Shown here piece by piece: positions 1 to 10,078 of a DNA stretch of 10,492 nucleotides. A program made the position numbers and the translations under genes. The stretch is from Rhodospirillaceae bacterium (GTDB taxonomy: Bacteria; Pseudomonadota; Alphaproteobacteria; UBA9219), in the NCBI GenBank assembly GCA_003486725.1, contig DNGD01000162.1, positions 1 through 10,492 of the forward strand. Direction: 5' to 3'. The stretch's first letter is position 1. Every line of letters begins with the position of its first letter. The notes below the pieces were generated by a model that searched no databases, was not told the DNA's origin, and saw nothing but the letters and a program-made list of their open reading frames with translations.

Positions 1-2201
1 CGCTGGATATCATCGTGGCGCAGGAGCCGGCGGCGATCCCCGACAACATCGCGCGCTATAAGCTGCTCCGCTGGGGCGAAAAGAACCTGTCGAACGTCAG
101 GATTGCCCCGCCGCAACAAGGCGGTATGGCGGACAGCACGCTCGCCTCCCTTTGCTCCATCGTCCAAATCATTCCCGCTGCCGATGGCGGAAACGACATG
201 GTTGTGCCCGAAACGGTTCTGGGATCGCAGCGCCATATCCCGTCCCTTAGCCACAAAGGCATTCTGGGCTGGCAGACGGATACGCTTGAGATCGAAAGCC
301 TGATGCTGGGCAACCCGCTCTCGTTCCCCATTCCGCCCCTTGTCGGCGTCAAAGTGACGGGCAAGCCGCGCAAAGGCGTCGGGTTCACCGACCTCGCCTT
401 GACGATTATGCTTCTGCTGCAACGGCATGAAGCGAAAGGCAAGATCGTGGAGTTCTTCGGCTCCGGCCTTGATGCCTTCAGCGCCGCGGATCGCGCCGCG
501 ATCGCGCAGATGGCGCATCACCACGAAGGCGTGCTGACGACGCTTTTCCCGATCGATGCGACGACGATCACGCATTTGCGGCAAACCAAGACCCCGCCAC
601 ACACCGTGGCTCTCGTCGAAGCCTACGCCAAGGCGCAAGGGCTGTGGCGCGAAGGCTGGCCACATGAATCCGCGCAAGACCCGACCTATAACACGGTGAT
701 CGAGCTTGGGCTTGATACGATCCGCGCCGTCGTCGGCTATGGCGGCATGGCGGGCACCGTCATCCAGCTCAGCGAAGCGGCAAGCTACTTCACCAAAAAC
801 AATCCGCCGCAAACAGCGGAAGGTGATCCCCTTGCCACGATCCGGCATGGTGACGTGCTGCTCGCGCAGCTGGGCAGCGAAACGACGCCCCCCCACCCGA
901 CCGAGATGATCATCGCGGGGCTTGTCGCCCGCGAGGCGCGCAAGAATGGCCTGAAGCTCAAGCCGTGGGTGCGCGCGACCATGCCGCCGCTGCCGACGCG
1001 TCTTGCCGCCTACATGAAAAAGGCTGGCCTGCTGGATGATCTGGACGCGTTGGGTTTCCGCCAAAGCGCTGCCGCCGCGAAAAGTCAGGAGCCCCTTCCC
1101 TTTGCAGCGCCGATTCAGAAAGCGCTTCAAGAAAACAAGCTAACACTTTGTTCTGTCGGCACAGACGACGACGTTTTTGACGGGCCGCTTCAAGAAGCCT
1201 GCAAGATTCATGTTCTGGCCTCGCCCGCCACCGTGATCGTCTATGCGATTGCGGGCAATGTCGCGCAAGACGTCTTCCTCAAGCCGATTGGCCTGAATGC
1301 GGAAGGCAAACCGATCAACATCCGCGATCTTTGGCCCGGTGTGGCGGACGTCCTCGCCCTCACCGAAGACACGCCCCCTCACCTTCTGACGGAATCCCGT
1401 CCGGACGACATCTTCCGTGCGCAACCCGACTGGCAAGCCATCACCGCGCCGACATCGACCGACGCCTTGTGGAAGGAACTCGCGCCCGTTGTCATCCGCC
1501 CCCCGCTGTTGGAGTCCTTCGCGCCTGAGCAACCGAAGAAAGAGAATATCCATAATGCGCGTATTCTGGCGATTTTGGAGAATGACGTGCAAGCCGGATG
1601 GATTCAGGCCGATCTCTTCCATCCGCCCGCCATTGCCCCGACAGGCAACTATGAGCAAATGCTCCAAGGTGCCCTTCAAAACGCGGCGTTGAAAAACGCG
1701 ATGGTCGAAGACCCTGCGGCGGTCGGTGTCACGAAACATCACCCGTCCGGCCTGACTATGCCCTACGCCGAGGCGATCAGCCGCTATCAGCGCGAGAAAA
1801 CGCCGATGGTTCTTGTCGCCGGCCATAATCTGGGCGGCGGGCGCGGACAGGAATGGGGCGCAAAAACCCTGCGCTATCTCGGCGTCAGGGCCGTCATCGC
1901 CCAAAGCTATGATCCGGCCTTCCGCCATAATCTCGTGCGCGTCGGAATCTTGCCGCTCCAACTGAAAAGCACGCTTTCGCTGGCCGACCTCAATCTCACC
2001 GGCACCGAGACGCTTAACCTGATCGGCATTCCCGATCTTGGTGCCCCACCGGGAGAAATCATGGTCACGCTGGAAGGTCACGAGGACATTGAGCGTTACA
2101 TGCTCCATTGCCGCCTTGATACGCCCGAGGAACACGCGATGTTCAACCAAGGCTCGCTCTGGGCAACAACGGCCAGATCCTTGATTCCAGTAGCCGTTTA
2201 A
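1..2201 (+). CDS. Degenerate aconitase-family protein (AcnA-like pseudoenzyme), 5' partial
   Basis: The frame is open from the left edge (first complete codon at 3) to TAA at 2199-2201, about 732 codons. The GTG at 15 is probably internal, because AcnA proteins are near 890 residues and about 100 N-terminal residues would lie outside. The fold is recognisable along the whole length: RYKLLRWGEKN, the GVGFTDLALT region, KGKIVEFFGSGL, KLKPWVRATMPP, LASPATVIVYAIAG, and a C-terminal swivel domain with GNYEQMLQGAL and HNLVRVGILPLQL. The catalytic parts are gone. TDSH of the family is SQRH (225-236). The first cluster cysteine (SCTNTSNP) is Glu (879-881). The GCTTC block with the other two cysteines is replaced by an Ala/Lys/Ser stretch (1053-1100). 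NRNFEGR is DDVFDGP (1167-1187) and SSR is RGQ (1842-1850). Seen: losses in an otherwise intact frame. Inferred: it cannot bind a [4Fe-4S] cluster or act as aconitase. A structural or RNA-binding role is conceivable but unsupported. Confidence 0.85.
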   Translation, partial: LDIIVAQEPAAIPDNIARYKLLRWGEKNLSNVRIAPPQQGGMADSTLASLCSIVQIIPAADGGNDMVVPETVLGSQRHIPSLSHKGILGWQTDTLEIESLMLGNPLSFPIPPLVGVKVTGKPRKGVGFTDLALTIMLLLQRHEAKGKIVEFFGSGLDAFSAADRAAIAQMAHHHEGVLTTLFPIDATTITHLRQTKTPPHTVALVEAYAKAQGLWREGWPHESAQDPTYNTVIELGLDTIRAVVGYGGMAGTVIQLSEAASYFTKNNPPQTAEGDPLATIRHGDVLLAQLGSETTPPHPTEMIIAGLVAREARKNGLKLKPWVRATMPPLPTRLAAYMKKAGLLDDLDALGFRQSAAAAKSQEPLPFAAPIQKALQENKLTLCSVGTDDDVFDGPLQEACKIHVLASPATVIVYAIAGNVAQDVFLKPIGLNAEGKPINIRDLWPGVADVLALTEDTPPHLLTESRPDDIFRAQPDWQAITAPTSTDALWKELAPVVIRPPLLESFAPEQPKKENIHNARILAILENDVQAGWIQADLFHPPAIAPTGNYEQMLQGALQNAALKNAMVEDPAAVGVTKHHPSGLTMPYAEAISRYQREKTPMVLVAGHNLGGGRGQEWGAKTLRYLGVRAVIAQSYDPAFRHNLVRVGILPLQLKSTLSLADLNLTGTETLNLIGIPDLGAPPGEIMVTLEGHEDIERYMLHCRLDTPEEHAMFNQGSLWATTARSLIPVAV

Positions 2202-2563: not shown

Positions 2564-3442
2564 ATGACCACCGCTCCCTTTGTTATCAGCGACGACGAAC
2601 TCAACGGCCTGATCGCCCGCTATACGCGCGACTTCACCGCACAAGACCGCGAGGGAAAGTTCGATCCCATCTCTGGCCGCGATTCCGAGCTTCAAAACCT
2701 CGTCCTCATCCTGTTGCAACGCCTGCGCAAGAACGTGATGCTGCTCGGGCCGGCGGGCGTCGGCAAGACCGCCCTTTTCGTCGGCCTCTCCCAGTTGATC
2801 AACGCGGGGAAAGTCCCCAAACAGCTGCAAAACGCCCGCGTCATCGAACTGGAAATGTCGATGATCGGTGCCGGCTCCTCCACCCGCGCCGACCTTGAAG
2901 GCCGCCTGATCCCCATCGTCAAAGGCGTGGCGGAACGCAACGCGTCGGGTTTGTTTCCGCCCATCATCTTCTGCATCGATGAAATCCATCAGCTGATGAT
3001 CTCCTTCAAAGCCTCCAGCTACAGCGGCATCGCCGATCTTCTTAAGCCCTATCTGACGAACGGCGATCTATACGTCGTCGGCGCGACGACGGCAGAAGAA
3101 TATGACGATTACGTCAAGCAGGAACCCGCCATCGACCGCCGCTTCCAAAAGGTCAACCTTGACGTGCCCGATCTGGCAATGACGGCCAGCATCCTGCGCT
3201 ATCTGCGTCCCAATTTTGAAAAGCACTACGGCTTCAAAATCACCGACGAGACGATCGAGCGCCTCGTGAAACTCACGGATCGCTACATCCGCAACCGCAA
3301 CAACCCCGACAAATCGATCATCATGATGGATCAGGCCTGCGCGCATGCCACGATGAGGGGCATCACGGACGAACTCGACAACGATTCCATCGCCGCCGCC
3401 ATCGGCGCGGAGACGGGAATCAACAAGCTGGCCGTCGGATGA
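2564..3442 (+). CDS. Stand-alone AAA+ ATPase, single ClpA/ClpB D1-type module
   Basis: This 292-residue protein matches the first nucleotide-binding module of ClpA/ClpB and little else. It has Walker A GPAGVGKT at 62-69, Walker B FCIDE with D139/E140, sensor-1 GATT at 173-176, an arginine-finger segment IDRRFQKV at 190-197, and a small helical domain with RYIRNRNNPDKSI. There is no N-domain, coiled-coil M-domain or second AAA+ module, so it is about one third of ClpB. The aromatic pore-loop motif (AKYRG in ClpB D1) reads SSTRA (105-109), with Thr107 where the substrate-gripping Tyr should be. It should bind and hydrolyse ATP and probably oligomerise. Classical protein threading through a pore looks doubtful (inference). 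The start has no strong Shine-Dalgarno. The stop overlaps the next start (ATGA), indicating translational coupling. Its substrate is unknown. Confidence 0.85.
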   Translation: MTTAPFVISDDELNGLIARYTRDFTAQDREGKFDPISGRDSELQNLVLILLQRLRKNVMLLGPAGVGKTALFVGLSQLINAGKVPKQLQNARVIELEMSMIGAGSSTRADLEGRLIPIVKGVAERNASGLFPPIIFCIDEIHQLMISFKASSYSGIADLLKPYLTNGDLYVVGATTAEEYDDYVKQEPAIDRRFQKVNLDVPDLAMTASILRYLRPNFEKHYGFKITDETIERLVKLTDRYIRNRNNPDKSIIMMDQACAHATMRGITDELDNDSIAAAIGAETGINKLAVG

Positions 3443-4497
3443 TCCGAGCGGTGCCTCTCCGCGTTGCCATTGTCGGACTAGGGTGGGTCGCGCTTCATCG
3501 GCATCTGCCCTCGCTGATGCGCTCGCATGGTTTCCAGCTTGTCGGCGTCATCGACCTCCACGAAGGTCTGGCTGCACGCACCGCGAAAAAATACGGCCTT
3601 CCTTTTCATGCGCAAACCGAAAACCTGTGCGATGTGCCGTGGCTGGATCAAGTCGACGCCCTTACGATCGCCGCGCCGCCCGCCGCCCACGCCCCGCTTG
3701 TCCTTGCCGCCTTGGCCAAAGGCAAACATGTGCTGACCGAAAAGCCCTTTGCCACCAGCGTGAGCGATGGCGAAGCGATGGTTGCCGCCGCGCAAAACGC
3801 CAACAAGACCTTGTGCGTCGTTCACAATTTTCAATTCAGCCGCGCCGCGAAGAAGTTGCAAAACGATCTTCAAAAAAATCGCCTTGGCGCGGTGAAACGC
3901 ATCACCGCCACGCAGCTGGGCAACCCGAAGCGCCGCCTTCCCAGCTGGTATGAAACCCTGCCGCTTGGCCTGTTTTATGATGAAAGTCCGCATTTCTTTT
4001 ACCTCCTTCATGGGTTAGCCGCCGGTGCGCTAAAACTGCGCCACGCCTATGGCGTGCATGATCCGTCGGGTATGAACACGCCATCTTCGATCAATCTGCT
4101 TTACAGCGATGACCGCAACATCCCCCTCACCGTCTCGTGCCAGTTCGACAGCGCGCTCAGCGAGTGGCACGTTATGGTGACGGGCGAGAAAGCCACGGGC
4201 CTTCTCGATATTTTCCGCGATATCTATATCCGTCTCCCGAATGATGGCAGGCACAACGCCTTGCAAATCCTGCGCACCAGCGTTTGCGCCTTTGCCGCTC
4301 ATTTCTGGCAGCATATCCCGAACGGCCTCGCGCTTTTGCGTGGTCGCCTCGATTATGGTAATGACGAGATCATGCGCCGCTTTGCCGCCGCGATCCGCAC
4401 GGGCAAACCCGATGACAAAATCGATGCCGCCCACGCGCTCGCCGTTTTAAAGCTGCAACACGAAGCGACAACCGCCCTTCAATCCAACATGTTTTAG
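3439..4497 (+). CDS. Gfo/Idh/MocA-family NAD(P)-dependent oxidoreductase
   Basis: A 352-residue protein with the two-domain layout of this sugar dehydrogenase family. The N-terminal Rossmann fold has the dinucleotide-binding GLGWVA at 13-18 after a hydrophobic strand. The diagnostic EKP motif is at 101-103 (LTEKPFATS). The second domain has D181xxxH185 (YDESPHFF), matching the usual catalytic Asp/His spacing. Family members oxidise or reduce hydroxyls on sugars, often nucleotide sugars, or inositols. The substrate cannot be read from sequence. The ATG at 3439 overlaps the TGA of the ATPase gene, and the glycosyltransferase follows after 9 bases, so the three genes are almost certainly co-transcribed. 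With the glycosyltransferase next door, a role in making a modified sugar for a surface glycan is the simplest inference. Confidence 0.87.
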   Translation: MIRAVPLRVAIVGLGWVALHRHLPSLMRSHGFQLVGVIDLHEGLAARTAKKYGLPFHAQTENLCDVPWLDQVDALTIAAPPAAHAPLVLAALAKGKHVLTEKPFATSVSDGEAMVAAAQNANKTLCVVHNFQFSRAAKKLQNDLQKNRLGAVKRITATQLGNPKRRLPSWYETLPLGLFYDESPHFFYLLHGLAAGALKLRHAYGVHDPSGMNTPSSINLLYSDDRNIPLTVSCQFDSALSEWHVMVTGEKATGLLDIFRDIYIRLPNDGRHNALQILRTSVCAFAAHFWQHIPNGLALLRGRLDYGNDEIMRRFAAAIRTGKPDDKIDAAHALAVLKLQHEATTALQSNMF

Positions 4498-4506
4498 TGA
4501 ACCCGT

Positions 4507-5712
4507 ATGACCGCCGCCATCAAGCGCCCTGATAAAACCGCCCCCACAGATCACGCCGTCAAACCCGTCGAGGTTGCGGTCGTCACGCACTATTACGGCG
4601 GCCATGGCGGTGGCATCGAACAAGTGGCCGAGCGCCTGATCCGTGAGCTTTCCGCCAAAGACGGCTACCACTTCACATGGATGGCCAGCGATTGCGACCC
4701 TGCGCCGCTGATCGAAGGGCAACGCCTGCAACCCATGTGTACCTGCAACGCGATCGAAAAATTTCTTGGCTTGCCGATGCCGCTGTGGGGTCTTAAAAGC
4801 CTTCGCGCGATGCTGGAGTCCATCCGCAAAGCCGATGTCCTGTGGCTGCACGACACGCTTTACATCGGTAACATGATCGCTTTTTGGGCGGCGCGACGCG
4901 CCCGCAAACCGATCATGATCACCCAGCATATCGCGCCGATCCCCTATCGCAATCCGGTAACCCGCGCCTTGATGCGTTTCGCCGATAAGTTCATCACCGC
5001 ACGCATGCTGCGCCTTGCCGAAGAAGTTACCTTTATCAGCGACCGCGTGGCCGAGGATTATTATCACCGCGTCGCCTTTACCCGCCCGATCAAAGTCATC
5101 CCGAACGGCGTGGATGTGCGTCTGTTCCATGTGCCGATACCGGAAAACCGCCGTTTCCTGCGCCAGCAATTCGCGCTGAAAGGCGATCAACCCGTCTTGC
5201 TTTTCGTTGGTCGCTTCGTCGAAAAGAAAGGCCTTGAAGTCATCCGTCGTCTGGCCATCCTTCTACCCGAATGGCGCTTTTGGCTGGCGGGCGGCGGTGC
5301 CATCGACCCGACTTCATGGTTGCTGCCCAACGTCCATGTGTTTACAGGTCGCAAAGGCCAAAGCCTCGCCGATCTCTACCAAGCCGCCGATCTGCTGTTG
5401 ATGCCCAGCTATGGCGAGGGGTTCCCGCTCGTCATTCAAGAAGCGATGGCCTGCGGCATTCCCGCTTTGTGCGGCCCCGAAACCGCGCAAGGCTGCGTGC
5501 CCGCCATTCCGCATCTCTATCTTTCCGACGTGTGGCCGGATAATCCGGAGCGCACCGCCGCCGTGTGGTTCGAGAAACTCAAAAACTTCCCGATTCCCCT
5601 GCCGCTTGAGCAGCCTGTCGAAAGCATCGCCGAGTTCGCGCTTCTTTCATGGGACTGGGCACCCATCGCCCGCGTCTATGGCGACCTGCTGCGCAAACTG
5701 TGCCGGCGGTAA
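4507..5712 (+). CDS. Glycosyltransferase family 4 (GT-B fold)
   Basis: A 401-residue protein with the GT4 landmarks. There is a glycine-rich N-terminal loop GGGIE at 34-38. PNGVD at 199-203 starts the C-terminal Rossmann domain, followed by FVGRFVEKKG around 233-242. The donor-binding E-x7-E pair is E304/E312 in GEGFPLVIQEAMACGIPAL. Family members move a sugar from a nucleotide donor to a lipid-linked or growing glycan at the cytoplasmic face of the membrane. No signal peptide or clear membrane segment is visible. The ATG lies 9 bases after the preceding stop with no good Shine-Dalgarno, so coupling to the oxidoreductase gene is likely. Only these two sugar-related genes are adjacent, so it is not a full polysaccharide cluster within this window. 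Donor and acceptor are unknown. Confidence 0.9.
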   Translation: MTAAIKRPDKTAPTDHAVKPVEVAVVTHYYGGHGGGIEQVAERLIRELSAKDGYHFTWMASDCDPAPLIEGQRLQPMCTCNAIEKFLGLPMPLWGLKSLRAMLESIRKADVLWLHDTLYIGNMIAFWAARRARKPIMITQHIAPIPYRNPVTRALMRFADKFITARMLRLAEEVTFISDRVAEDYYHRVAFTRPIKVIPNGVDVRLFHVPIPENRRFLRQQFALKGDQPVLLFVGRFVEKKGLEVIRRLAILLPEWRFWLAGGGAIDPTSWLLPNVHVFTGRKGQSLADLYQAADLLLMPSYGEGFPLVIQEAMACGIPALCGPETAQGCVPAIPHLYLSDVWPDNPERTAAVWFEKLKNFPIPLPLEQPVESIAEFALLSWDWAPIARVYGDLLRKLCRR

Positions 5713-9582: not shown

Positions 9583-9775
9583 CGTAAATTTCCTTCTCTT
9601 CTTCCTACCCTTTAGTGTCTTCCTGCATCCGCGCATCGCGCTCCGCGCAATGCTTGTGCAGGAAGTCGATTATGTATGATTGGGGAAAGGAAGGCCTGCC
9701 ACCCGAAGGATCGTAGGCTGTCCGCCTTCGCGCGAGGCGCTTCGGCGCGACATTTTTCAGGCTTCGCCTGAAAAA
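9583..9775. other. Palindrome-rich spacer between the orphan gene and tRNA-His
   Basis: No credible gene is seen. CTTCCTGCA (9619-9627) pairs with TGCAGGAAG (9657-9665) around a GCGC-rich core. GCGC-TTCG-GCGC lies near 9737-9748. GTCCGCC at 9719-9725 is complementary to GGCGGAC at 9779-9785 in the tRNA acceptor region. None is followed by a T-tract, so none is called as a terminator. Confidence 0.5.
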
Positions 9776-9777
9776 TG
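9751..9777. repeat. Perfect 12-bp hairpin overlapping the tRNA-His 3' end
   Basis: CATTTTTCAGGC - TTC - GCCTGAAAAATG is a perfect palindrome with a 3-base loop. Its right edge covers the last two bases of tRNA-His. On the minus strand it immediately follows the encoded CCA. It could act in 3'-end processing or stop the transcript, but there is no T-run after the stem, so it is not a standard Rho-independent terminator. Confidence 0.6.
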
Positions 9778-9852
9778 GGGCGGACGACGGGACTCGAACC
9801 CGCGACAACTCGGACCACAACCGAGGGCTCTACCAACTGAGCTACGACCGCC
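9776..9852 (-). tRNA. tRNA-His (anticodon GTG)
   Basis: Read on the minus strand, a full cloverleaf forms. It has a D arm GCTC-AGTTGGTA-GAGC, an anticodon stem CTCGG-TTGTGGT-CCGAG with anticodon GTG, a T arm GCGGG-TTCGAGT-CCCGT, and an encoded CCA. The extra 5' G (G-1, at 9852) faces C73, the classic bacterial tRNA-His identity element. Acceptor pairs are G1-C72, C2-G71, G3-C70, G4-C69, C6-G67 and G7-C66, but position 5-68 is a U-U mismatch. It is transcribed divergently from glnA. The possible promoter (TTGGGT, 17 bases, TGTAAG upstream) is weak. Confidence 0.95.
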
Positions 9853-10078
9853 ACACATGTCTTACAAGCGGCTGTCTTTTAGCACCCAAAACAACGCTCG
9901 GGCAATAAAAACGCCCGCTCCTTGGGGAAGCAGGCCGTGACAGCACTTCATAACACGATGTTTATCCAAACTCGTCAAAGTTGTCAAGTGCTTAGAATTA
10001 GGCTTAGGCTTACTCAACAACATAAAAGGGCGATTCGTTTTTCCGTTACTTTTCAACCATTCAGGCAAGGAGTTAACC
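9853..10078. other. Intergenic leader between tRNA-His and glnA
   Basis: This stretch must carry the promoters of both divergent genes. I see no convincing sigma-54 (TGGCAC-N5-TTGC) or NtrC-like site before glnA. A TAGAAT at 9993-9998 is the best -10 candidate but lacks a good -35. A short dyad CGGGC-AATAAAAAC-GCCCG lies at 9899-9917. The glnA ribosome binding site AAGGAG (10069-10074 region) sits about 6 bases before the ATG. Confidence 0.4.

Follow-up and report, generated by a model that had tools for sequence, protein, structure and literature searches.

A putative pseudo-aconitase retained by a lineage of uncultured bacteria without detectable citrate synthase

The window analysed here, the whole stretch of 10,492 nucleotides (bases 1-10492 of contig G000:C61, GenBank DNGD01000162.1), belongs to a metagenome-assembled genome (MAG) of an uncultured bacterium (1.65 Mb, 79% complete) and opens with a gene for a homologue of the aconitases AcnA and IRP1. 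In this gene (acn) and in its orthologues the catalytic residues have been lost while the fold is under purifying selection, which is the combination that marks a pseudoenzyme. Probably, the product is a fixed pseudoenzyme, that is, a folded AcnA kept for a non-catalytic job after the oxidative branch of the tricarboxylic acid (TCA) cycle had been lost. The initial annotation of the window had proposed selection for something other than aconitase activity, and this proposal is supported by losses shared among relatives, by a ratio of nonsynonymous to synonymous substitution rates (dN/dS) of 0.17 and by an intact predicted fold.

Lost residues in the window gene and in its relatives

The gene and the altered sites are listed below. 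Names such as D165 follow what we take to be the mitochondrial aconitase numbering, "residue" numbers are those of the product, and copies that have lost the active-site motifs are called dead, as opposed to canonical.

3-2201, forward strand: pseudo-aconitase (dead AcnA/IRP1 homologue), 732 sense codons, 5' end open at the contig start
222-236, forward strand: GSQRH aligned with GTDSH (D165, S166, H167)
504-530, forward strand: AQMAHHHEG aligned with ANMAPEYG; N258 and E262 lost
861-893, forward strand: first cluster-ligand site, TSCTNTS changed to GSETTPP; Cys replaced by Glu (residue 293, nucleotides 879-881)
894-908, forward strand: HPTEM; its Glu (residue 301) in 18/19 dead sequences, Val in the 38 canonical rows
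1053-1100, forward strand: former CTTCIGN cluster loop, shortened and Cys-free; predicted local distance difference test score (pLDDT) <50 at residues 356-364
1161-1187, forward strand: TDDDVFDGP aligned with SGNRNFEGR (N446, R447, R452)
1584-1613, forward strand: DVQAGWIQAD aligned with the SVTTDHISPAG-type linker motif; DH changed to GW
1833-1862, forward strand: GGGRGQEWGA aligned with GTGSSRDWAA, SSR changed to RGQ; R644 replaced by Gln in 18/19 dead sequences, QE at residues 616-617 conserved
1929-1946, forward strand: NLVRVG; its Arg (residue 646) in 19/19 dead sequences, Gly in the 38 canonical rows
2094-2105, forward strand: RYML; as a C-terminal motif RYM is conserved in the dead clade and present in genome G012 too

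The open reading frame (ORF) 3-2201 matches both profiles of the aconitase superfamily well above their cut-offs (PF00330, 183.9 bits against 28.7; PF00694, 76.8 bits against 22.8), and its assignment to the AcnA/IRP1 type comes from the Pfam and NCBIfam profiles and from the sequence matches to IRP1 and IRP2 in PDB. The cut-offs of the NCBIfam AcnA models (NF006757, TIGR01341; 686-945 bits) are reached neither by the window protein (413-469 bits) nor by P0001, a full-length dead member, which at 437-494 bits stays below all of them. The replacements originally read from the window (TDSH to SQRH, SSR to RGQ, NRNFEGR to DDVFDGP, linker DH to GW) were all confirmed, as was the loss of the three cluster cysteines: the first has become Glu, and both cysteines of the shortened CTTCIGN loop are absent, the alignment having Ala in one Cys column and a gap in the other. 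To these are added the losses of D100/H101, H147 and N258/E262. The description of the gene as full-length, on the other hand, has to be corrected, as the window copy is truncated by the contig start and about 124 N-terminal residues are encoded on contig G000:C168 (locus L147) of the same assembly, the last 25 bases of which are identical to the first ones of the window. Breaks within acn affect two of the seven assemblies with a dead copy, lying at the start of G000:C61 and at the ends of G003:C57 and C143.

The same kind of losses was found in all six genomes of the genus (G000-G005) and in G013, which represents another genus of the same family; in G001-G005 and G013 the dead gene is the only AcnA-like one. 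A protein profile search over 5.8 billion proteins (best 120 of 2739 matches listed, 7998 candidates scored) added 13 dead members, one of which is the G005 protein, so that with the 12 further proteins at least 19 distinct dead sequences are available in total. Orthologues sharing the losses, on which the initial proposal depended, are thus present in the other five genomes of the genus, in G013 and among the further proteins. An assembly or frame artefact was rejected, since the seven genomes and the 12 further proteins agree and the gene is cut at the window start only because the contig begins there. Of the 33 genomes of the order that were searched, seven carry a dead copy and 18 a canonical one, which is partial in two; no AcnA was found in another seven, and G012 is in between. 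A contig scan with the window protein kept 80 loci of 31-35% identity, none of them close to the dead clade.

Our motif table of 142 rows contains 120 rows with all motifs canonical, 20 dead rows (19 distinct) and two rows, both of the one G012 protein, in between; 23 of the 30 acn loci entered it, and the remaining seven show the six canonical motifs in an alignment-free search. Conservation and phylogeny were analysed in a hand-chosen set of 19 dead rows, one G012 row and 38 canonical rows, G000 and G003 being represented without their N-terminal pieces. At 20 cluster, substrate, catalytic and linker positions, invariant in the canonical rows, the original residue is kept in 29/380 dead cells (8%; 8 of the 380 are missing data), compared with 47% for the 310 other columns conserved in at least 97% of the canonical rows. 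The three [4Fe-4S] ligands are kept in 1/57 cells, the catalytic serines S642/S643 in 1/38, and the residues D165, S166, H167, N446, R447, R452, S642, S643 and R644 taken together in 11/171 (3 missing data), all far from the complement of an AcnA. The alignment-free search recovered none of the six normal motifs in the eight loci that carry the dead copies of the seven genomes, and all six in each of 12 further acn loci used as a control. Chance is excluded, because 19 distinct sequences show losses of this kind and the dead loci are devoid of the motifs.

The most Cys-rich columns of the dead set have Cys in 15/19 sequences and are not ligand positions; one of them, alignment column 682, is mostly Ala (20) or Cys (9) in the canonical rows. 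The dead homologue P0003 is named "aconitate hydratase" (JGI) and "aconitase family protein [Bdellovibrionales bacterium]" (NCBI); the function so implied conflicts with the loss of the active site, and Bdellovibrionales with the designation "Alphaproteobacteria bacterium" carried by the G012 protein (P0016) and the G009 protein (P0020), so that the class is probable only.

A single origin of the dead clade appears likely, because its members share new residues (R646 in 19/19, Q616 and E301 in 18/19 each) and all 19 dead rows lie on one side of a branch in the acn tree with a Shimodaira-Hasegawa-like approximate likelihood ratio test (SH-aLRT) value of 100, this tree being affected by long branches. 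The G012 row adjoins the dead clade. The AcnA of G012 (L009 / L146) has the cluster cysteines and DSH intact, TPR in place of SSR and DQ in place of the linker DH, and no match to citrate synthase, isocitrate dehydrogenase (ICDH) or 2-oxoglutarate dehydrogenase (2-OGDH) was obtained in its genome. Judged from these motifs, the protein may represent an early stage of loss, on the same path or in parallel; the parallel case is possible because the tree of the AAA+ gene adjacent to acn places G012 outside the dead group (99/97).

Constraint, predicted fold and missing TCA enzymes

A dN/dS near 1 had been named in advance as refuting selection on the gene. In the closest dead pair, G004/G005 (857 codons, 82% identity, unsaturated dS), the NG86 method gave 0.172 (bootstrap 0.138-0.213), similar to the values of the neighbouring MocA (0.170) and GT4 (0.140) genes of the same two genomes and above those of the DUF1036-type cl2 (0.107), acyltransferase (0.106), MiaB (0.081) and AAA+ (0.025) genes. 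Within acn, codons no more than three residues from the former active-site positions have a dN/dS of 0.223 (87 codons), and the remaining ones of 0.166. The NG86 values of canonical pairs (0.13-0.32 in the 14 lowest-dS of 66 pairs) are unreliable, their dS appearing saturated or biased, and were not used. No internal stop interrupts the dead acn in the seven genomes, the copies of G000 and G003 being each in two pieces at contig ends; the stop seen inside a G003 piece is the terminal stop of that piece and not a frame break. A decaying copy is rejected by the dN/dS and by the losses common to orthologues.

The structural core, as initially claimed, is preserved: AlphaFold predicts the complete four-domain aconitase fold over the whole length, with pLDDT <50 in the former cluster loop. 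Domain 4 (0.47) and the stretch from TDSH to the first Cys site (0.45) are the best-kept parts, which would suit a protein kept for contacts, and the largest drop in constraint falls on the cluster and NRNFEGR segment. The dead proteins have a mean isoelectric point (pI) of 5.77 and a mean net charge of about -16, compared with 6.03 and about -12 in the canonical ones.

The enzymes next to aconitase in the cycle appear to be missing, and this would account for the dispensability of catalysis. Citrate synthase (PF00285) had no match in G000-G005, G012 and G013, Re-type citrate synthase and unusual routes lying outside this search, and was found in 25 of the 39 genomes searched in the same way. 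As for ICDH, PF00180 gave one match each in G001, G002 and G012, at 442-445 bits (the LeuB score class), those of G002 and G012 being on the same contig as the LeuC/LeuD matches, and no further match in these eight genomes; matches of about 200-230 bits (G009, G010, G016) were taken as putative ICDH, a class split that we infer from scores and to which a few other genomes with in-between values conform less clearly. Among 15 genomes, neither monomeric isocitrate dehydrogenase nor, above the cut-off, isocitrate lyase was detected, and the C-terminus of 2-OGDH was present in three (G009, G010, G016), all with normal acn. TCA-complete relatives carry a normal aconitase. LeuC is present in G001 and G002, and completeness reaches 100% in G002 and 96% in G005.

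In the PF00330 search, none of the seven dead genomes yielded an AcnB or a further AcnA. The suggestion that the protein is a partner of an active aconitase was rejected on these grounds, the dead gene being the sole AcnA/AcnB detected there. G007, G019 and G020 gave neither a citrate synthase nor any AcnA match. Large subunits of the hacA type (3-isopropylmalate/homoaconitate family) are encoded at L134:1141-2529 in G012 and at L128:1009-2475 in G020; they exceed the NF001614 and TIGR01343 cut-offs, neither genome has a citrate synthase match, and the G012 subunit and its LeuC sit on different contigs.

Gene neighbourhood and the AAA+ ATPase

Downstream of the pseudo-aconitase gene the window contains the following features:

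2564-3442, forward strand: stand-alone AAA+ ATPase, 292 aa, of the ClpA/ClpB/ClpV first-domain type; candidate partner, the next recognisable same-strand gene
3439-4497, forward strand: GFO_IDH_MocA oxidoreductase (MocA), 4-nt overlap with the AAA+ gene
4507-5712, forward strand: family-4 glycosyltransferase (GT4), last gene of the conserved series
9776-9851, reverse strand: tRNA-His (GTG)

The ORFs 9612-9854 (reverse strand) and 9680-9940 (forward strand), which overlap the tRNA-His, are probably not genes.

The AAA+ gene lies downstream of acn on the same strand in 7/7 dead genomes, at a distance of 11-71 nt in five of them; the gap widens to about 0.36-0.4 kb in G003 and the window. MocA comes next in all six dead genomes whose contig extends there, and GT4 in all five with a sufficient contig (G000, G002, G003, G004, G005); G012 has the identical acn-AAA+-MocA-GT4 series. 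On the other side of acn, a divergent small gene (DUF1036 by Pfam in G005) and miaB occur in the six dead genomes reaching this region, and are separated by an acyltransferase gene in five of these six.

True Clp proteins excluded, the stand-alone AAA+ ATPase was found in 30 of the 32 genomes of the order covered by the search, the exceptions being G008 and G019; the 29 homologues of the window protein are 54-86% identical to it. None of the seven genomes outside the order yielded the protein. It stands directly behind a canonical acn in G010, G026, G028 and G030; in G009 a small ORF intervenes, and in G024 the distance is 1.7 kb. The two genes are on separate contigs in G011, G014, G015, G016, G017, G018, G021, G022, G023, G025, G029 and G031, which carries little weight for the more fragmented of these assemblies. 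In the genus g3, where the AAA+ gene is not beside acn, acn is missing from three genomes that also show no citrate synthase, whereas G012 and the dead clade, where the two genes are adjacent, have retained it; with few independent events, this contrast is a hint only. The idea that the AAA+ gene depends on acn was rejected, since it is present in genomes where acn was not found.

The window AAA+ protein retains Walker A (GPAGVGKT), Walker B (IIFCIDEIH) and an arginine-finger-like AIDRRF. At the site of the ClpB pore loop, which we take to be AGAKYRGEFEERL, it has GAGSSTRADLEGRL, with no aromatic residue; the same holds in 7/11 genomes, those where a simple pattern matched. The protein may not be a threading translocase.

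Interpretation and alternative explanations

The succession of events that we favour is as follows. The oxidative TCA branch would have been lost in the lineage first; catalysis would then no longer have been selected, and the [4Fe-4S] ligands together with the substrate-binding and catalytic residues would have been erased, while the whole fold would have been retained for a non-catalytic role exerted by protein-protein contact, as a scaffold or a regulator. Such a contact role may already have been present in AcnA before catalysis was lost. The best candidate for the partner would be the co-directional stand-alone AAA+ ATPase, because it is encoded with acn both in the dead and in some normal lineages. 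A scaffold, which was among the roles initially suggested, or another non-catalytic role would thus be the best option left. The broader supposition that the AcnA of the order as a whole has a second, non-catalytic and cluster-independent function with the AAA+ ATPase, laid bare when the TCA branch disappeared, which would make the dead clade a natural separation-of-function mutant, is conceivable but rather doubtful.

Several observations weigh against the interpretation as a retained contact protein. The dead acn sequences are only 32-41% identical in 11 pairs whose AAA+ proteins are 71-77% identical. Of ten canonical pairs with AAA+ identity of 66-74%, eight reach 71-77% in acn, and the two that include G018 reach 62-63%; the constraint on dead acn is looser than that on a normal aconitase, yet far from neutral. 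The dN/dS estimate comes from a single pair and a simple method. The tree of the AAA+ gene (16 rows, G001 partial) does not group the dead genomes together, since the TCA-complete G010 falls among them as the weakly supported neighbour (83/79) of the dead G013. The AAA+ gene exists in genomes where acn was not found (G006, G007, G020, G027), and the conserved gene order may reflect shared transcription alone. The absences of enzymes come from MAGs, and completeness is only 62-80% in three of the seven that carry a dead copy. Finally, both the job and the partner are inferred.

Among the alternatives, a new cluster-free enzyme, whose cleft would have been rebuilt around other residues for a different substrate, appears rather unlikely. 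It would agree with the whole fold kept under purifying selection and with the residues conserved specifically in the clade, including Q616-E617, R646, E301 and R698-Y699-M700. However, at the 20 former active-site positions the only replacements common to at least 14 of the 19 sequences are that of R644 by Gln (18/19) and the deletion of the second CTTC cysteine (19/19); R452 has become Pro in 13/19, and the other positions hold many different residues. Moreover, it is in the cluster and NRNFEGR segment that constraint fell most, contrary to what would be expected of a new catalytic centre in this place, and the former cluster loop is predicted with the low confidence noted above.

It is likewise unlikely that the gene is a functionless relic, kept for the expression or translation of the genes downstream or slowly decaying. 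Its fast divergence and its position at the head of the co-directional series, closely before the AAA+ gene in most dead genomes, could be understood in this way, but the upper bound of the dN/dS (0.21), the frames free of internal stops in seven genomes and the whole-length predicted fold are at odds with it. Expression of the downstream genes does not need an 860-residue fold, and the family members without citrate synthase that show no AcnA at all (G007, G019, G020) speak against passive retention as well.

A permanently apo, RNA-binding regulator resembling IRP1 or IRP2, another of the roles first suggested, is improbable. IRP1, with its cluster cysteines in place, alternates between an enzymatic and an RNA-binding state, while IRP2 is an aconitase-fold protein without aconitase activity which binds RNA and has cysteines. 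These two are the nearest solved structures by sequence, and the dead protein matches IRP2 in sequence and in fold; IRP2, however, is a eukaryotic iron regulator, and no counterpart of its RNA role or cysteines has been shown for the dead protein, which differs from IRP1/cytosolic aconitase (2b3x, 3snp) in lacking both the cluster site and the conserved arginines shared by substrate and RNA. We take R447, R452 and R644 to be the arginines used for both substrate and iron-responsive element (IRE) binding; they are kept in 0/19 dead sequences (0/57 cells). The proteins are moreover acidic (mean pI 5.8), being no more basic than the canonical ones, and the role is disfavoured because of the lost arginines and this charge; RNA binding by the known surface is thus unlikely, as judged from the residues. 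In favour of it, loss of the cluster enables mRNA binding in IRP1 (PMC7435893), and a bacterial, namely mycobacterial, apo-AcnA is reported to bind the cwlM mRNA (PMC7527780). The latter is likewise a non-catalytic role of a bacterial AcnA, although it belongs to an intact enzyme and is conditional on cluster loss, whereas in the dead clade this loss is written into the gene itself.

That the protein is still an aconitase, or a subunit aiding an active one, can be practically dismissed on sequence grounds despite its family membership by fold and Pfam, given the cluster cysteines kept in one cell and the serines in another, the full-length member's score far below the AcnA cut-offs, and the same genomes showing no other AcnA/AcnB and no citrate synthase.

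Returning to the preferred interpretation of a fixed pseudoenzyme, the dead protein is homologous to bacterial AcnA over the whole length and all four domains, and some canonical relatives of the order (G010, G026, G028, G030) share the position of acn directly before the AAA+ gene; it differs from AcnA in having no cluster ligands and almost no catalytic residues, and in belonging to genomes that show no citrate synthase, ICDH or 2-OGDH. In other families, the enzyme fold was kept, catalysis lost and a new or second role taken by the pseudoenzymes delta1-crystallin and alpha-lactalbumin (PMC7435893). For a dead AcnA clade we found no precedent in the titles and abstract beginnings of the open-licence PMC literature (CC0, CC BY, CC BY-SA).

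The name "aconitate hydratase" given to P0003 in spite of its lost active site is a warning for the annotation of such genes. Aconitase is a textbook moonlighting protein, whose second roles are hard to study since metabolism needs the enzyme. In the dead clade, evolution has seemingly removed the enzyme and kept the whole fold, in genomes without detectable neighbouring TCA enzymes. A binding partner of the dead protein would reveal a function of aconitase independent of catalysis and of the cluster, and would show as well whether the normal AcnA of the relatives shares this function.
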